Positions 1 through 7,678 of a stretch of DNA of 64,000 bases are shown here, piece by piece. The translations under genes and the position numbers were made by a program. The DNA lies in the NCBI RefSeq assembly GCF_900188485.1, contig NZ_FZPH01000011.1:186001-250000 (forward strand), in the 5' to 3' direction. The stretch is from Asanoa hainanensis (GTDB lineage: Bacteria > Actinomycetota > Actinomycetes > Mycobacteriales > Micromonosporaceae). Each line of letters starts with the position of its first letter. Positions within the stretch are counted from its first letter, which is position 1. A model generated the notes under the pieces. That model was not told where the DNA came from, searched no databases, and saw only the letters and a list, made by a program, of their open reading frames with translations.

Positions 1-449
1 GCGAACGCGGCCACCAGCCAGAGCAGCGACGGACCCCGCTGGTGGTCGGCGATCGTGTAGACCGTGGCCGTCGGGTCGTCCGCGGAGGTCAGCGGGGTGA
101 CGATCACCGCGTCGCCGACGTCGACGCTGGGCGCGCCCGGGCCGTTCGGCAGGTCCGTCTCCCGGGTCTGGCCCTTGTCGGGGCCGGAGTCGAGCGTGAC
201 CGTGGCGGTGCCGCACGGGCCGGGCTCCGTCTCGCCGGACGGCGTCGCCGGGCAGATCGACTCCACGATCGTGGTGACCGTGGCGTGGAAGCGCGGCACC
301 GGGTCGGCCCGGTCGGGCTGCGGCAGGTCGCCCGGCCAGAGCAGCGCGGTGGCGATCCCGGTGGCCAGGAAGGCGGGCACCAGGATGGCGGCGAGGATGA
401 TCCGCAGGCGGCGTGGGGCCCGCGGCGCGGGCTGGTGGTCGTGACCCAT
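1..449 (-). CDS. YibE/F family membrane protein, N-terminal part (runs off window)
   Basis: An uninterrupted reading frame starts at ATG 449 and runs to the window edge. It encodes a short His/Pro/Arg-rich cytoplasmic start, one hydrophobic segment (about residues 16-36), then an extracytoplasmic stretch rich in acidic and Thr residues with two Cys. The visible part ends in LLWLVAAFA, the start of a second membrane segment. This order (one helix, a soluble domain with a GPD-type turn, then DHQRGPSLLW before the helical bundle) is the N-terminal layout of actinobacterial YibE/F proteins, whose function is not known. The start lies four bases after the stop of the formate dehydrogenase membrane subunit, so it may be the last gene of that operon. 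No strong ribosome site is visible. The C-terminal bulk is outside the window. Confidence 0.7.
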   Translation of the reverse strand, partial: MGHDHQPAPRAPRRLRIILAAILVPAFLATGIATALLWPGDLPQPDRADPVPRFHATVTTIVESICPATPSGETEPGPCGTATVTLDSGPDKGQTRETDLPNGPGAPSVDVGDAVIVTPLTSADDPTATVYTIADHQRGPSLLWLVAAF

Positions 450-453
450 CGGG

Positions 454-1434
454 TCAGAGGGTACCGAGGCGCTCCCGCTGCGGAACCACCGTGTACTTCG
501 GGTCCTCCGCCGACGCCTTGCCCGCCTCGAAGACGCCGAGGCGGGTGGCCAGCGAGCCGGCCAGCAGCGCGCCGCCGGCCAGCGCCGACACCGTGCGGCT
601 CCGCGAGCCGAGCAACGCACCGACGGCGCCGGCCGCGGTCAGCACCCGGGCCGCGCGCAGCAGCGTGCCCGCCCGGCCCGTGCGGTAGGGCTCGCTGAGC
701 AGGCCCATCCGGTGCTCGACGCCGTGGGTCGCGGCCAGCTCCAGGGCGGCGCCGGCCACCGCGAGGGTGCGGGCCGGGCCGGCCTGGGCGGTCGGCGCGC
801 CGATCATCCCGGCTGCGCCGCCGCTGGCCAGCGCGCTGCCGGCGAAGACGAAGGGCATTCGGGGGTACGCCGCATGCCAGGAGGGCGTCGCGGTGTCAGA
901 GATCAACACGGCGGTGTACGTCGCCATGGCGGGCGCCAGGGCGGCGGCGGCCAGCCCACCCGCCCGGCCGGCGACCGGCAGCGCCCGGGCGGCCAGCCCG
1001 ACGGCGCCCCGGCGCGGCAACAGCGGCGCGGCCTCGGCGACCGCCGCCAGGCCCGCGGCCGCGCTGAAACCGCTGAAGATCCAGGTGCCCATCGACATGG
1101 GTGAGGTCGGCTTGGCCACGCGGAGCATGTTGAGGAAGCGGCTCGGCCGGCCCAGGTCGACGACGAGGAAGTACGTGCTGGCGAGGATCGCACCCAGCCC
1201 AGTGAGCCGGGCGGTGGTGCGCAGCGCGGCGCGCCCGGTCAGGTCGGCTCCGGCGGCGACGAGCGCGGACCCGGCCGCGAGCCCACCAGTGAAGAAGTAG
1301 GCGGCGATGTCGTGCGTCCAGACCGGCTTCTTGACGATCGGCCGGCCGTAGTAGGAGCGGAACTCGGCCGGCGGCACCATGACCCGGTCGCCCTTGCCAC
1401 CACCGCGCCGGCCCGCGCGTACCCGATCGGTCAC
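454..1434 (-). CDS. formate dehydrogenase membrane subunit, NrfD/PsrC-like
   Basis: A 326-residue protein dominated by hydrophobic helices (about eight). Near the N-terminus it has the motif PVWTHDIAAYFFTGG, typical of the NrfD/PsrC quinone-interacting membrane anchor family, with a conserved DLGRP turn after the second helix. In NrfD-type complexes this subunit anchors the iron-sulfur subunit and passes electrons to the menaquinone pool. It replaces the di-haem cytochrome b556 subunit of the enteric enzyme; no conserved haem-histidine pairs stand out. GTG at 1434 is chosen because it overlaps the beta-subunit stop in a GTGA junction; a longer in-frame extension to 1506 would lie inside the beta gene. 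Third gene of a tightly coupled operon. Confidence 0.85.
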   Translation of the reverse strand: MTDRVRAGRRGGGKGDRVMVPPAEFRSYYGRPIVKKPVWTHDIAAYFFTGGLAAGSALVAAGADLTGRAALRTTARLTGLGAILASTYFLVVDLGRPSRFLNMLRVAKPTSPMSMGTWIFSGFSAAAGLAAVAEAAPLLPRRGAVGLAARALPVAGRAGGLAAAALAPAMATYTAVLISDTATPSWHAAYPRMPFVFAGSALASGGAAGMIGAPTAQAGPARTLAVAGAALELAATHGVEHRMGLLSEPYRTGRAGTLLRAARVLTAAGAVGALLGSRSRTVSALAGGALLAGSLATRLGVFEAGKASAEDPKYTVVPQRERLGTL

Positions 1435-2351
1435 GGCCTTCTCCCCAGGAACGCCACGACGGCCGCGGCCGCCATGCCCAACGCTGCCACGCCCGCATGC
1501 TTCCACATGCTCGGCAGGTCGCGGGTGGTGACCACGGGATCCGGCGGCAGGCCGTACACCTCGGGCTCGTCGAGCAGCAGGAAGAACGCGCCGTCACCGC
1601 CGACGCCGTCGTCGGGGTCATGGCCGTAGAGCTTGGCCTCGGTGACGCCGCGCTGGTGCAGCACCTCGACCCGCTGCGCGGCACGCTCCCGGAGCTCGTC
1701 GAGCTCACCGTACTGAATGGACTGGGTCGGGCAGGCCTGCGCGCAGGCGGGGGTCATGCCCTCGCCGATCCGGTCGTAGCAGAGCGTGCACTTCCACGCC
1801 CGCCCGTCGTCCTCGCGCCGGTCGATCACGCCGTACGGGCAGGCCGCGACGCAGTAGCCGCAGCCGTTGCAGATGTCCTCCTGCACGACGACGGTGCCGT
1901 ACTCGGTGCGGAACAGCGACCCCGTCGGGCACACGTCGAGGCAGCCGGCGTGCGTGCAGTGCTTGCACACGTTCGACATCATCAGCCAGCGCAGGTCGCG
2001 GCCCTCGCGGCCCTCGGTGCCGGGCAGGGTCGAGGAGGGCATGCCGAGGAACTGGGTCGACACCGTCGCCTCGGCCTCGCGCAGCACGTCCATGGCGGCC
2101 GGGCTCGGTGCGGCCTGCTCGATGAAGGCCACGTGCCGCCAGCTGTTGGCGGACAGCCCGCCGGTGTTGTCGTACGACATGCCGAGCAGGTCGAAACCGT
2201 CGTCGGGTACGGCGTTCCACTCCTTGCAGGCGACCTCGCAGGCCTTGCAGCCGATGCAGACGCTGGTGTCGGTGAAGAAGCCCATCCGCGGCGGCGCGTC
2301 GGTGTAGCCGGCATCCTTTGCCGGGTCGATCGGGCCAAACAGGCTGTTCAT
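1431..2351 (-). CDS. fdoH: formate dehydrogenase iron-sulfur (beta) subunit
   Basis: A 306-residue ferredoxin-like subunit with sixteen Cys in four [4Fe-4S] motifs: CIGCKACEVACKEW near residue 33, CKHCTHAGCLDVCP, CNGCGYCVAACP, and a last cluster split between CTLC and CAQACP. These form the electron wire from the molybdopterin subunit to the membrane. The C-terminus carries a single hydrophobic helix (WKHAGVAALGMAAAAVVAFL), as in FdnH/FdoH. The ATG at 2351 shares one base with the alpha-subunit stop (TGATG), with GGGGGAG immediately upstream, so the two are translationally coupled. A GTG one codon earlier is also possible. Length and cluster order match the family. Confidence 0.92.
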   Translation of the reverse strand: MNSLFGPIDPAKDAGYTDAPPRMGFFTDTSVCIGCKACEVACKEWNAVPDDGFDLLGMSYDNTGGLSANSWRHVAFIEQAAPSPAAMDVLREAEATVSTQFLGMPSSTLPGTEGREGRDLRWLMMSNVCKHCTHAGCLDVCPTGSLFRTEYGTVVVQEDICNGCGYCVAACPYGVIDRREDDGRAWKCTLCYDRIGEGMTPACAQACPTQSIQYGELDELRERAAQRVEVLHQRGVTEAKLYGHDPDDGVGGDGAFFLLLDEPEVYGLPPDPVVTTRDLPSMWKHAGVAALGMAAAAVVAFLGRRP

Positions 2352-5300
2352 CACTCCCCCGCTCCGGGTGTCTCCAACGGCGCGTAGTGCGAGGCGTCCA
2401 ACCCCGCCCGCCGAAGATAGTCGGCGATGTAGTCGAGCAGGGCCCGCCCGGTGGGCCGGCGGCCCGGCTGGATGTCGCAGGTGCCGACCTTGCTCTCCTG
2501 GATCAGCACGTTGGGGTCGAGGGTGATGCCGAACAGGTCGTTGGCCGAGTCGCCGGTGACCAGACCCGAACCGCCCCAGTGGTACGGCAGCCAGATCTGG
2601 TGGATGACCCGCCCGTCCAGCCGCAACGGGCGCAGCCGGGCCGTGACCAGCACCCGCGCCTCGACGGCGGCCCGCCCGGTGACCACGTGCGCCCAGCCCA
2701 GGTGCTCGAGCCCGCGCTCCTCGGCCAGCGCCGGCGAGACCTCGACGAACATCGCGGGCTGCAGCTCCGACAGGTAGGCCAGCTGCCGGCTCATCCCACC
2801 GGCGGTGTGGTGCTCGGTGAGGCGGCTGGTGGTGAAGACGTACGGGAACACCTCGCTGTGCCGTTCCGGCGGGGCGGGGTTGAGCTGGTTCTCCGGCCGG
2901 TCGTACACCTTGCGGACCGGGTTGGCCTGCTGCGCGTAGAGCGGGTTGCGCAGCGGCGACTCGGCCGGCTCGTAGTGGGTCGGCATCGGGCCGTCGATCA
3001 GGCCGGCCGGCGCGTACAGCCAGCCCTTTCCGTCACCCTGCATGATGAACGCGTCGTCGCCCGCGAGCCCGTGGACGCCGATGGTGCCCGGCGCGGGCCG
3101 GAAGGCCGGGTCCTTCGTCTTCTCGAAGTCGGGCACGTCGTGGCCGGTCCACTCGCCCTTCTCCGGATCCCACCAGACGTACGCCTTCTTCGCGCTCCAC
3201 GGCGCCCCTTGCGGGTCGGCGGACGCGCGGTTGTAGAGGATCCGCCGGTTGGCCGGCCAGACCCAGCCCCACTCGGGCGCGACCCAGCTCTGCTCCTTGC
3301 CGGGCTTGCGCCGGGCGGCCTGGTTGACGCCGTCGGCGAATACTCCACTGTAGATCCAGCAGCCACACGCGGTGGAGCCGTCGGCCTGGAGCTGGGTGAA
3401 GCCGGACAACGGCGCGCCGGTGGCCACGTCGTACCCGTTGATCTCCTTGAGCACCGCCTCGGCGTCGGGCTCGTTGTGCTGCCCGCTGATCGGGTAGCTC
3501 CAGGCCAGCTTTTTGATCGGCTCGTCGCGCTCCAGTGTGGACGTCGCGAGGCGCTCCCGGACCAGGCGGCCGAGGTGGTAGAAGAACCACAGTTCCGAGC
3601 GGCAGTCCTGCGGCGGGTCGAGGGCCTTCTCCCGCCACTGCAGCATGCGCTGGGTCTGGGTGAACGTGCCCTCCTTCTCCACATGGGACGCCGCAGGCAG
3701 GAAGAACACCTCGGTGCGGCACTCCTCCGTGACGATCTCGCCGGTCTCGATCTCGGGCGAGTCCTTCCAGAACGTCGCGCTCTCGATCATGTAGAGGTCG
3801 CGGACCACGAGCCAGTCGAGGTTGGCCATGCCGAGCCGCTGCGCCCGGCCGTGCGCCGAGCCGACCGCCGGGTTCTGGCCGAGCAGGAAGTACCCCTTGA
3901 TCTTCCCGTCGATCATGTTGAGCACCTGTTGGTACGTGCCGTGGTCGCCGGTCAGCCGGGGCAGCCAGCCGTAACCCCAGTCGTTCTCCTCGGTCGCGTG
4001 CTCGCCGAAGTAGGCCTTGAGCAGGCTGACCGCATAGCAGCGGGCGTACGCCCAGAAGCCCTTCTGCCCCAGGTGTCGGATCGCCTCGGCCCACATGTCG
4101 AAGGTCTCGTGCTGCTTGAAGTGCGGCATCGGCAGGTAGCCCGGCAGCAGGTTGAACAGCGTCGGGATGTCGGTCGAGCCCTGGATGCTGGCGTGCCCGC
4201 GCAGCGCCATGATGCCGCCGCCCGGGCGACCCATGTTGCCGAGCAGGAGCTGGATGATGGCGCCGGCCCGGATGTACTGGACGCCGACGGTGTGCTGGGT
4301 CCAACCCACCGAGTAGACCAGCGCCGTCGTGCGCTCGCGCCCCGAGTTGCGGGTCCAGGCCTCACAGACCTTCCGGAACTGCTCCGGGGGTACGCCGCAG
4401 ACGCGCTCGACCACCTCGGGGGTGTAGCGGGCGTAGTGGCGCTTGAGGATCTGGTAGACGCAGCGCGGATCCTGGAGGGTCTCGTCGCGGGCGACGAAGC
4501 CGCTGACCGGCGGACCGTGGGCCTCGTGCTGGAAACCGGCCGCGGTCTCCCGATGGACGTGCGTGTCCTCGTGCGTCTGGGCGAACTCCTCGTGGCCCTC
4601 GTACTGCCAGCTGGCCGGGTCGTACGTGCCGGTCTCGGGGTGGTAGCCGGAGAACAGCCCGCCGAGGTCCTCGGTGTCCTGGAACCCTTCGGTCACCAGC
4701 GTGGCCGCGTTGGTGTAGGCGACCACGTACTCCCGGAAGTCGAGCTCGTTGGACAGGATGTAGTTGATCACCCCGCCGAGGAACGCGATGTCGGAGCCGA
4801 CCCGCAGCGGCACGAACTCGTCGGCCACCGCGCTGGTCCGGGTGAACCGCGGGTCGACGTGGATCACCGTCGCACCGCGCTTCTTCGCCTCCATCACCCA
4901 CTGGAACCCGACCGGGTGCGCCTCGGCCATGTTGGACCCTTGGATGACGATGCAGTCGGCGTTAGCCAGGTCCTGCTGGAACCCGGTGGCCCCGCCACGG
5001 CCGAAGCTGGTCCCCAGACCGGGGACGGTGGAGGAGTGTCAAATGCGCGCCTGGTTCTCGATCTGGATCGCGCCCATCGCGGTGAACAACTTCTTGATCA
5101 GGTAGTTCTCTTCGTTGTCCAGCGTGGCGCCACCCAGGCTCGAGATGCCCAGAGTACGGTTGAGCGGACGCCCGTCGTCGTCCTTGTCCTCCCAGGTGTC
5201 GGCGCGAGCCTTGACCACCCGATCGGCGATCATCTCCATGGCGGTGTCGAGGTCGAGCTCTTCCCAGTCGGTGCCGTAGGGACGGCGATAGAGCACCGTG

Positions 5301-5608
5301 CGCTGACGGCGGTCGCTGGTGACAAGGCTCTTGCTGGCTGAGCCCTTGGGACAGAGCCGGCCACGCGAGATGGGGCTGTCGGGATCGCCCTCGATCTGGA
5401 CGACCTTGCCGTCCTTGACGAACACCCGCTGCCCACACCCGACAGCGCAGTAGGGACAGACGGACCTGGCCACCGAGTCGGCGGCCTTGGTGCGTGGCTC
5501 GAGCGCATCGGTGCGCGCGGAACGGGCGGCGTGCCCGCGGCCAAGCGGGTCAGTGCCGGTGAGCTGCCGGTAAACCGGCCACCCCTCGATCCACGTCCGC
5601 ACCCCCAC
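2351..5608 (-). CDS. fdoG: selenocysteine-containing formate dehydrogenase catalytic (alpha) subunit
   Basis: Molybdopterin oxidoreductase of about 1085 residues that oxidises formate to CO2. It is read as one protein through an in-frame TGA at 5041-5039 (residue 190). N-terminal [4Fe-4S] cysteines are at about 51, 54, 58 and 86 (CPYCAVGCGQ ... GRLCPKGS). The sequence around the TGA reads ENQARI-U-HSSTVPGLGTSFGRG, where FdnG/FdhF enzymes carry the selenocysteine that ligates Mo/W. Both halves are in the same frame and continue the family alignment into NMAEAHPVGFQW. A bSECIS-like hairpin follows the TGA. There is no twin-arginine signal, so a cytoplasm-facing enzyme is likely. The GTG start at 5608 has AGGGTGG upstream; a second GTG lies two codons in. 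selA, selB, selC and selD are not in the window and must be elsewhere if the protein is made. Confidence 0.93.
5010..5041 (-). promoter_or_regulatory. bSECIS element for selenocysteine insertion
   Basis: On the minus strand the UGA is followed by 18 bases and then the loop GGUCU. The loop is closed by a perfect six-base stem, GUCCCC (5026-5021) with GGGGAC (5015-5010). From the published E. coli fdhF element as I remember it, the same GGUCU apical loop lies the same distance after the UGA, with loop G and U contacting SelB. Loop sequence, stem and spacing therefore all fit a functional element, although it also has to encode the GLGTSFGRG residues. Confidence 0.82.
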
Positions 5609-5708
5609 GCAACCACCCTAGATCACCGCCCCGACCCGCGCACCCGTTGCGCAACGCCCGCGCCACACCCAGCGCGGCGCGGCGCGCAACTTCACGCCAG
5701 ACCCCGCC

Positions 5709-5758
5709 AGATCTAGGTAAACCGTTGTCGCGACAGCAGCAACGGCTTACCTAGATCT
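5709..5758. repeat. 50-bp palindromic repeat, copy 1
   Basis: The left arm AGATCTAGGTAAACCGTTG and the right arm are reverse complements at 18 of 19 positions. They are separated by a 12-base loop, TCGCGACAGCAG. Outer TAG and TAA triplets read as stops from both sides. There is no T-run after either arm, so it does not look like a classical intrinsic terminator. It is much more AT-rich than its surroundings. Confidence 0.85.
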
Positions 5759-5853
5759 CCATGGCGACGCGGGCCGCGAGACGCGGGCCGGGCGGCGCGC
5801 GCCGGGCGGCTGCCTGGTACGGCGTGGCGCGCGACGCCACGCCGTACCCCAGC

Positions 5854-5903
5854 AGATCTAGGTAAACCGTTGTCGCGATAGCAGCAACGATTTACCTAGA
5901 TCT
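5854..5903. repeat. 50-bp palindromic repeat, copy 2
   Basis: Same left arm as copy 1, and the 12-base loop differs by one base (TCGCGATAGCAG). The right arm pairs at 18 of 19 positions, with its single mismatch at a different place from copy 1. The start is 145 bp from copy 1. Confidence 0.85.
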
Positions 5904-6040
5904 CATGGCGGCGCAGGCCGCGCAACGCGCGGCGCAGGCCGCACGGCGCGGACCGCGCGGCGCGGGCTGGGGGGCGCTGGTCTCGCGCGGACGGCGCGGC
6001 GGGGTGCGGCGTGGCGCGTGGCGCCGCGCCGGAGCCCGGC

Positions 6041-6090
6041 GGATCTAGGTCAAGGGTTGTCGCTATGGCGGCAATCCTTTACCTAGATCT
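6041..6090. repeat. 50-bp palindromic repeat, copy 3, overlapping a gene end
   Basis: A diverged copy: left arm GGATCTAGGTCAAGGGTTG, loop TCGCTATGGCGG, right arm CAATCCTTTACCTAGATCT, with 16 of 19 arm positions paired. The inner arm sequence has changed on both sides (CCG to GGG or GGA) while pairing is mostly kept, which suggests the fold is retained. The right arm encodes the last residues and TAA stop of the minus-strand gene that ends at 6079. Confidence 0.8.
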
Positions 6091-7068
6091 CTCCTTGGGT
6101 GGGGTGTAGCCGCGGGAGATGAGGGCGCGGAGGAGTTGGGACGCCACCGTTTCCGGGTTGCTGCGGATCTGGGACGCCGGGAAGCGGAGGACGAGGTCAC
6201 CGGCTATCCATAGGTCGTTGTGGCGGGCCATGTCCGCCTCCCATTGCCTGATCTCCGTGTGGTGGCCGCCGTCTACTTCGGCGTGGATGCCGAACGCTTC
6301 CCAGTACGCGTCCAGGTAGCGGGTCCGCCCCGAGGCGTCGGTCCGTCGGCGTTGGAGGTCTGGTCTGGGCAAGCGGCGGACGCGGCAGAGCCGCACGAAG
6401 TCGATCTCCGCCAGCGAGCCCGCGCCACCGGCCACGTCGGTTGCCGTGGTCAGCACCAGGCGGCGGCGACGGGCGCGCGGCAGCCGATCGACCACGGCGA
6501 GGAGCTCTTCGGGCAACACCCTGCCCTGTTGGCACGCGGCGGCCACCACGGCGCGCGCCTCGTCGTCGCTCGGCGCCCAGGCCGCGGCGTCCACCACCGA
6601 TCGGGCCATACTCGTGCGATCCGGCCGCGCGCGCTGGCGGTCCACCTCGGGAAGCGTCGACGTCCGGTGCACCTTGACGGCGGGAAGCTCGTGCGGGAGC
6701 CGGCGCAGCAGGTCAGGTGATTTGCGTTCGCCGGGCACGAGCACGTCGACCGCGGTGCGCTTCCAGCTGCCGCGCAGCCCGCCGGCTGCGGCCGCGGCGA
6801 GGCCGGCGAGCAGCGCGCCGCGACCGGCTGCGAGCACGGCGACCCAGGCCTGTTGTTCGACTCCGAGGGGACCGGGTCGCGTGACGAGCACACCCACGGA
6901 CACCCGTTGCCAACGGTTCGACGCCAACCGGTGGCGGACGACGCCCGGCCCGACCGCGGCGACCGCCTGCCGATATGTGAGAACGCCCGCCTGCTCGAAC
7001 ACCAACCACTCGAAGGGCGACGCGGAGTCAGCGGGAACCGGCATCGCACCAGGACAGCGAAAGTCCAC
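6079..7068 (-). CDS. DUF559 / Vsr-like endonuclease-fold protein with AbiEi-like N-terminus
   Basis: A 329-residue protein common in actinobacteria. The N-terminal part (FEQAGVLTYRQAVAAVG ... RLASNRWQRVSVGV) resembles the winged-helix head of AbiEi-type proteins. The C-terminal part, from about residue 225, has the DUF559/VSR nuclease pattern: an acidic DFVRLCR segment, then HAEVDGGHH, a conserved W and D, and LVLRFPASQI. The function of these solitary proteins is not established; a DNA-nuclease fold is inferred. The listed start is GTG 7068; ATG 7044 (MPVPADSASP) is a good alternative. The final codons, reading R-S-R-stop, fall inside palindromic repeat copy 3, so the repeat has either replaced or formed the natural C-terminus. 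No adjacent partner antitoxin is seen. Confidence 0.65.
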   Translation of the reverse strand: MDFRCPGAMPVPADSASPFEWLVFEQAGVLTYRQAVAAVGPGVVRHRLASNRWQRVSVGVLVTRPGPLGVEQQAWVAVLAAGRGALLAGLAAAAAGGLRGSWKRTAVDVLVPGERKSPDLLRRLPHELPAVKVHRTSTLPEVDRQRARPDRTSMARSVVDAAAWAPSDDEARAVVAAACQQGRVLPEELLAVVDRLPRARRRRLVLTTATDVAGGAGSLAEIDFVRLCRVRRLPRPDLQRRRTDASGRTRYLDAYWEAFGIHAEVDGGHHTEIRQWEADMARHNDLWIAGDLVLRFPASQIRSNPETVASQLLRALISRGYTPPKERSR

Positions 7069-7102: not shown

Positions 7103-7678
7103 TCAGCCAGCCGCGGTGACGCGGTCGACCAGGGTGGCGATCAGGTCGTCGTACGGGTACGGGGCTAAGACGTCCGGGACCGTCAGGTCGTCGATCAGGA
7201 GGCCCGACATCGCCAGGTAGAGCAGGACGACTGTGGACTCGTCGCCTGGTAGGTCGGCGTCCAGGTGGAACTTGATGCTTTCCCGCAGGTTCTGGCTGAA
7301 GACGTCGACCAGGACCGCGCGCAGTTCTGGGCGGCGGGTGGCTTCCAGGCGTAGCTCCAGCATCGCCAGGTAGGTCGGGCGGTCCCGGCGCAGCCGGTCC
7401 AGGAGTTGGTGCATCAGGAGCGTGACCAACTCCCGGGTAAGCGGCGCGCGCATCGTCGACGCCACCTCCGACTCGTGAGGGGTCAGACGCTCCCGGGTCC
7501 GCTGCGCCACCTGGGCGATCAGGTCGTCGCGGTTGGCGAAGTAGTTCGACGCCGTGCCGGTCGGGACCCCGGCCGCCGTGTCGACCGCGCGGAAGGTCAG
7601 GCCGCGGGAGCCGTCGCCGGCCAGCACCGAGATCGCGGCGTCGAGCAGGGCGGTGCGGCGGGCGGGGTTCTGGCGCAT
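7103..7678 (-). CDS. TetR family transcriptional regulator
   Basis: 191 residues. The N-terminal helix-turn-helix (about residues 8-55) contains the TetR signature: ALLDAAISVLAGDG, then LTFRAVDTAAGVPTGTASNYF and NRDDLIAQV, ahead of an all-helical ligand domain. It is transcribed away from the DHFR-like gene. The 67-bp gap holds a perfect 12+12 inverted repeat that is its most likely operator, so it probably represses itself and the divergent reductase. The start at ATG 7678 is the only one that keeps the full DNA-binding domain. Ligand unknown. Confidence 0.9.
   Translation of the reverse strand: MRQNPARRTALLDAAISVLAGDGSRGLTFRAVDTAAGVPTGTASNYFANRDDLIAQVAQRTRERLTPHESEVASTMRAPLTRELVTLLMHQLLDRLRRDRPTYLAMLELRLEATRRPELRAVLVDVFSQNLRESIKFHLDADLPGDESTVVLLYLAMSGLLIDDLTVPDVLAPYPYDDLIATLVDRVTAAG

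Follow-up and report, generated by a model that had tools for sequence, protein, structure and literature searches.

A formate dehydrogenase gene of Asanoa hainanensis that appears to use a stop codon for selenocysteine insertion

In E. coli, selenocysteine (Sec) is made on its tRNA: SerRS loads serine onto tRNA-Sec, SelA turns this serine into Sec with selenophosphate from SelD, and SelB-GTP brings the Sec-tRNA to the ribosome. A formate dehydrogenase that contains Sec has been described in Actinomycetospora chiangmaiensis DSM 45062. According to the consulted part of the report (PMC7176365), the membrane-bound FDH1 of this organism has an FdhA of 1,078 amino acids with Sec, and its cluster comprises FdhA, FdhB, FdhC and then a 'permease (transmembrane protein)', with SelA and SelB included. 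The same part of the report states that a SECIS was sought with bSECISearch, and that the removal of formate depends on selenite. The Sec formate dehydrogenase is the ordinary form of the enzyme in the bacterial family considered here, and is already known (NCBIfam model NF041513; PMC7176365, in the part consulted). A limited literature search found no paper joining Micromonospora, selenocysteine and formate dehydrogenase.

The gene discussed here, fdhA, lies in a window of 64,000 nucleotides (the whole stretch of DNA that was analysed) from Asanoa hainanensis, a soil actinomycete with a genome of 8.6 Mb in 44 contigs. It occupies positions 2351..5608 on the minus strand, with a GTG start and a terminal TGA stop at 2353-2351. 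From the GTG at 5608, 189 amino acids are encoded up to another TGA at 5041-5039, and the same frame is then open to 2351, so that this in-frame TGA (5039..5041, minus strand) is codon 190. With the TGA translated as Sec, the product has 1,085 residues. The GTG start is found at the same place in all seven Asanoa loci inspected (six genomes), and the closest named relative by FdhA protein, among the best 80 of 593 relatives, is Asanoa ishikariensis (96%). An earlier, sequence-only reading of this DNA had been confined to 5010..5608, which takes in the N-terminal part of the gene and the hairpin discussed below, but not the whole gene. It had rightly predicted that gene callers would split the gene: a plain ORF list, in which TGA is a stop, cuts fdhA into frames of 189 and 859 amino acids, which is of concern for annotation.

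In profile searches, FdhA scores 1962.8 bits against NF041513 (formate_DH_Act, the actinobacterial formate dehydrogenase; cut-off 1400), with residues 6-1066 aligned to positions 2-1066 of the 1067 in the model, and 948.4 bits against TIGR01553 (formate dehydrogenase-N alpha; cut-off 814.2), and is a member of both families. Among solved structures, chain A of 1KQF (E. coli FdnG) matches FdhA best, and the alignment falls into two blocks, residues 17-338 and 369-1031. The residue that is written X in chain A stands opposite FdhA residue 190, so that Sec falls in the same column, and the flanks on both sides are aligned in one frame. Both the Sec position of the TGA and the alignment of its flanks with FdnG-type enzymes had been claimed in the sequence-only reading, and both hold. 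The fdhA product is almost certainly a formate-oxidising molybdo- or tungsto-enzyme whose metal is ligated by selenocysteine.

The two open frames of the plain ORF list would also be expected of a cysteine gene that carries a nonsense mutation or a sequencing error at this codon, in other words of a pseudogene or an artefact, and orthologues with Cys do occur in the same family. Against this stands the conservation of the codon, which is TGA in all 110 loci compared, from several genera. As the search string used for the motif-based gene set includes the motif, this conservation was taken from a separate, motif-free reading; the motif-based set, which kept 110 of 110, supplies the codon, proline, Tat and tree counts given below. 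Some species are represented more than once in the 110 loci, as by L023 and L052, and 108 of the genes are distinct; since only the best 80 of 593 relatives were retained, the sample favours close, Sec-type genes. Every one of the fdhA matches listed across the family genomes carries at least one TGA, and some relatives are printed with extra stops (two TGA, TGA and TAG, or TGA and TAA). Beyond the TGA, all 110 loci have an open frame of 871-972 codons (one runs to the end of its contig without reaching a stop), and this length fits a normal gene end. As the genome also contains the whole Sec machinery, it is exceedingly improbable that the TGA is an error or a disabling mutation.

The selC gene for tRNA-Sec is found at contig 20:201574 (70.1 bits, cut-off 47), with the anticodon UCA and, by eye, the discriminator base G73, as needed for Sec decoding. 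In the part consulted, PMC5330540 describes G73 as essential for tRNA-Sec. The selA gene starts 30 bases after selC (435.9 bits, cut-off 267.9). The selB and selD genes are arranged back to back at contig 25:177740-179719, outside the window and about 9 kb from fdhA, and like SelA, both products exceed the curated cut-offs for components of Sec decoding (SelB, 281.2 bits against 242.25; SelD, 383.8 bits against 125). The 682-residue SelB frame matches the families of the GTPase, of domain 2, of the SelB beta-barrel and of the terminal winged helix. At its CxCK motif, SelD carries Cys rather than Sec. The sequence-only reading had proposed a search for selA, selB, selC and selD, and had named their absence as the finding that would speak against it. 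The search was run, and the presence of all four genes removes this objection.

Eight of the nine tRNA-Sec matches in the genome were inspected. A second candidate (L002, 48.8 bits, cut-off 47) was rejected as tRNA-Sec, with its GCA anticodon and U73 (by eye); it also lies in front of rtcB, and has relatives in tRNA gene arrays. For six of the nine matches, which were fetched for a further look, ARAGORN calls tRNA-Ser (three), tRNA-Gly, tRNA-Leu and tRNA-Tyr. The rejected candidate (L002:1501-1585; G000 contig 31:34517) is a tRNA-Sec-shaped RNA with an 8/4 fold (by eye) and has relatives in L133, L134 and L135. It is found in four of the six Asanoa genomes searched. In three of these four, an rtcB-like RNA ligase gene follows 23-28 bases after its end; the fourth copy belongs to an array of 14 tRNA genes, with no rtcB visible in the 3 kb examined. 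Across the four sequences, six pairs of a hand-drawn structure are changed on both sides. A model of this RNA matches 23 of 121 family genomes, and among the 14 loci with full ARAGORN output, ten have at least five tRNA genes and six have a tRNA-Cys call. The RNA resembles selC-like tRNA-Cys, which a review places in other phyla (PMC7609411, in the part consulted).

Downstream of the Sec codon, the RNA can form a SECIS apical hairpin (5010..5026, minus strand). Its stem, GUCCCC/GGGGAC (5026-5021 with 5015-5010), is paired at six of six positions and encloses a GGUCU loop (5020-5016), with 18 bases between the UGA and GGUCU. An apical stem-loop of the kind expected of a SECIS, with a GGU-type loop that follows the UGA at a short and fixed spacing, is thus present, and the perfect stem and the 18-base spacing are as the sequence-only reading described them. 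That reading had called the element E. coli-like. The likeness applies to the fdhF SECIS, which shares the UGACAC start, the 18-base spacing, the GGUCU loop and a short apical stem, but has a bulged U in its predicted apical stem, which is missing here, and a different lower stem. It does not extend to the loop of E. coli fdnG itself, which is AGUCU. The Sec-position TGA and the downstream hairpin are confirmed as observed in the window.

Folding of the hairpin, which had been suggested as a check, bears out the stem and loop, but not an unusual stability: the fold energy is not better than that of dinucleotide shuffles (z 0.34 and -0.05 in two runs). An Rfam search of the window at gathering thresholds gave no matches. 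The unremarkable energy agrees with a reading in which the ribosome stops at the TGA or inserts some other amino acid there, and in which the conservation downstream reflects protein constraint only. We did not count stability above shuffles as a defining SECIS feature in GC-rich DNA. Since the fold energy is unremarkable in such DNA, the case for the element rests on comparison.

The comparison is most informative at synonymous sites. In the stem, the last base of the Val codon at +5 after Sec lies opposite that of the Gly codon at +9. In the 108 distinct genes, these two bases are C-G in 72, T-A in 26, G-C in one, T-G in six and G-T in three, so that all form a standard or G-U pair. Conserved four-fold sites that are up to 30 alignment columns apart form 2,752 pairs. 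Of these, the +5/+9 pair has the highest covariation (0.34; the next pair has 0.26) and the highest mutual information, and it is fourth when pairs are ordered simply by their share of complementary cells. Codons that are otherwise rare are enriched exactly at the stem positions. GTT is used at codon +5 in 32 of 108 genes, against 67 of 7,908 other Val codons in the same genes. At codon +9, 26 of the 108 have GGA, a codon that makes up 383 of the 11,142 Gly codons elsewhere; GGT stands at codon +7 in 106 of 108 (AGT in the other two), against 1,252 of 11,142. Complementary changes and codon enrichment of this kind argue against protein constraint as the only cause. Relatedness among the genes weakens the covariation signal. 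After correction for the tree, seven independent pairs are left, in which the partner changes in the same way in 5.1 cases on average, in the opposite way in none, and shows no difference in 1.9. The median p of 0.06 is not significant on the tree alone, a point in favour of an ordinary stop or another read-through. Conservation and synonymous covariation exceed chance, whereas the fold energy does not, and selection on stem pairing, which is expected of a SECIS, is observed.

Sequences with Cys in place of Sec offer a further comparison. A total of 250 family genomes were searched for fdhA (E up to 1e-100, with some matches partial) and selA (E up to 1e-60, with 162 of 163 matches above the curated cut-off). 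There were 159 genomes with an fdhA match and 163 with a selA match: 153 had both, six had fdhA only, ten had selA only and 81 had neither. The 153 are genomes that match both genes, and the Sec codon was read in only a minority of them. The sequence-only reading had presented Sec use as distinctive, in view of the patchy occurrence of selenoproteins; with 153 of 250 genomes matching both genes, it is not a rarity in this family, and the present genome is one more added to the users of selenocysteine.

Three of the fdhA-only genomes (G010, G068 and G081) have near-full-length copies without a stop, two of them in G081, and a fourth (G005, 69% complete) has fragments without a stop. The five sequences from these four genomes that cover the site (L147, L148, L149, L157 and L158) have TGC or TGT at the codon. 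They still pair at three to five of the six stem positions, as might be expected if the pairing were a by-product of protein constraint around an ordinary stop or a codon read as another amino acid. The GGTCT loop, on the other hand, is lost in four of the five and kept in one, and the co-occurrence of fdhA and selA likewise speaks for Sec. A stop or a different amino acid would moreover leave the enzyme with a missing or wrong catalytic ligand, and we consider either very unlikely. That fdhA uses the stop codon for inserting Sec appears well supported by these comparisons, and the earlier reading of the gene as a Sec formate dehydrogenase is supported with it.

The remaining two fdhA-only genomes (G025 and G089) have TGA but no selA match. 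They are a mismatch to the association of Sec with selA, although the absence of selA is weak evidence in assemblies that are 80% and 86% complete. The ten selA-only genomes may use other selenoproteins. In five of them (G004, G030, G041, G066 and G083) there is no FdhA match at E up to 1e-20, and these may have other selenoproteins or an orphan selA. A sixth (G242) has short pieces of fdhA among its matches, and the other four (G093, G113, G180 and G237) have distant homologues only.

The Cys sequences also differ at the sixth codon after the site, which supplies stem bases. All 110 Sec genes have a Pro codon there and none of the five Cys sequences does; they have Ile, Ala or Val instead. 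The RNA signal thus seems to fix an amino acid, and a switch to Cys may bring more than one change. Sec and Cys copies within one family form a comparative set, in which the constraint that a recoding signal places on synonymous and amino-acid choice can be studied.

The fdhA gene is followed by fdhB, fdhC and the gene of a YibE/F-type membrane protein, all on the minus strand. The iron-sulphur subunit gene fdhB (1431..2354) overlaps the end of fdhA. Its product matches Fer4_11 and other 4Fe-4S families, scores 187.2 bits against TIGR01582 (FDH-beta), below the cut-off of 334.7, and contains, close to its C terminus, a short run of hydrophobic residues that, by eye, reads like a membrane anchor. 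The fdhC gene (454..1380) encodes an NrfD-type membrane subunit (PF03916 NrfD, 66.3 bits); its open frame begins at 1506, but judged by eye translation probably starts near 1380. The YibE/F gene (1..449) runs off the window with only its start inside; the open frame is from 620, with a likely start near 449 (by eye), and the PF07907 YibE_F score of 247.6 bits was taken on the whole frame (L017:15187-16620). The cluster is similar to that of A. chiangmaiensis FDH1, as described in the consulted part of PMC7176365, in having a Sec-containing FdhA and the order fdhA, fdhB, fdhC and membrane protein gene. It differs in that selA and selB are inside the A. chiangmaiensis cluster, whereas in A. hainanensis selA is beside selC on another contig, and selB is beside selD.

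In the E. coli FdnGHI enzyme, FdnG has a Tat motif and FdnI is a PF01292 cytochrome b. In contrast, FdhA lacks an RR pair within its first 48 residues, and FdhC matches NrfD, but not PF01292. An RR somewhere in the N-terminal stretch is present in 19 of the 105 covered loci (window gene included), and a loose Tat-like match in five of the 105; in each of these five, the RR lies upstream of the point where the alignment begins. Given the lack of a Tat motif and the NrfD subunit, the description of the enzyme as FdnG-type is apt for the catalytic subunit, but not for the membrane module.

The gene, the TGA in the place of the Sec codon, the hairpin 18 bases downstream with its conservation and covariation, the predicted tRNA-Sec(UCA) and the predicted SelA, SelB and SelD can all be read from the genome sequence. 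By analogy with E. coli, SelB would dock on the hairpin via its C-terminal winged helix, and the UGA would be read as Sec rather than as a stop. Formate would be oxidised at the Sec-ligated metal centre of FdhA, and electrons would pass to the iron-sulphur subunit FdhB, from there to the NrfD-type FdhC, and on to the quinone pool. Because of the absence of a Tat motif, the catalytic side of FdhA most likely faces the cytoplasm. We tentatively suggest, as a possibility that we hold to be less probable than its opposite, that aerobic actinomycetes have in this enzyme a Sec formate dehydrogenase that faces the cytoplasm, is coupled through NrfD and feeds trace formate to quinones, and whose SECIS also dictates protein sequence.

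The region upstream of fdhA has features of its own. Between fdhA and the upstream gene (5664-6091), a 96-base unit is present three times in direct orientation; with one copy taken as the reference, the other two resemble it at 79% and 80%. Every copy contains a hairpin of roughly 50 bases (z -7.9 to -10.3). With up to three mismatches, the unit occurs at three more places in the rest of the genome (one with one mismatch, two with three); among 165 loci, an exact match is found in L018 only, which is the same place itself. The three hairpins and a DUF559 gene (6079-7068) lie between fdhA and a TetR-type gene (7103-7678). In the closest relative (L023 and L052, among the best 80 of 593), the TetR-type gene appears, by eye, to be directly upstream of fdhA. 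The segment 5700-7070, with the DUF559 gene and the hairpins, looks like an insertion.
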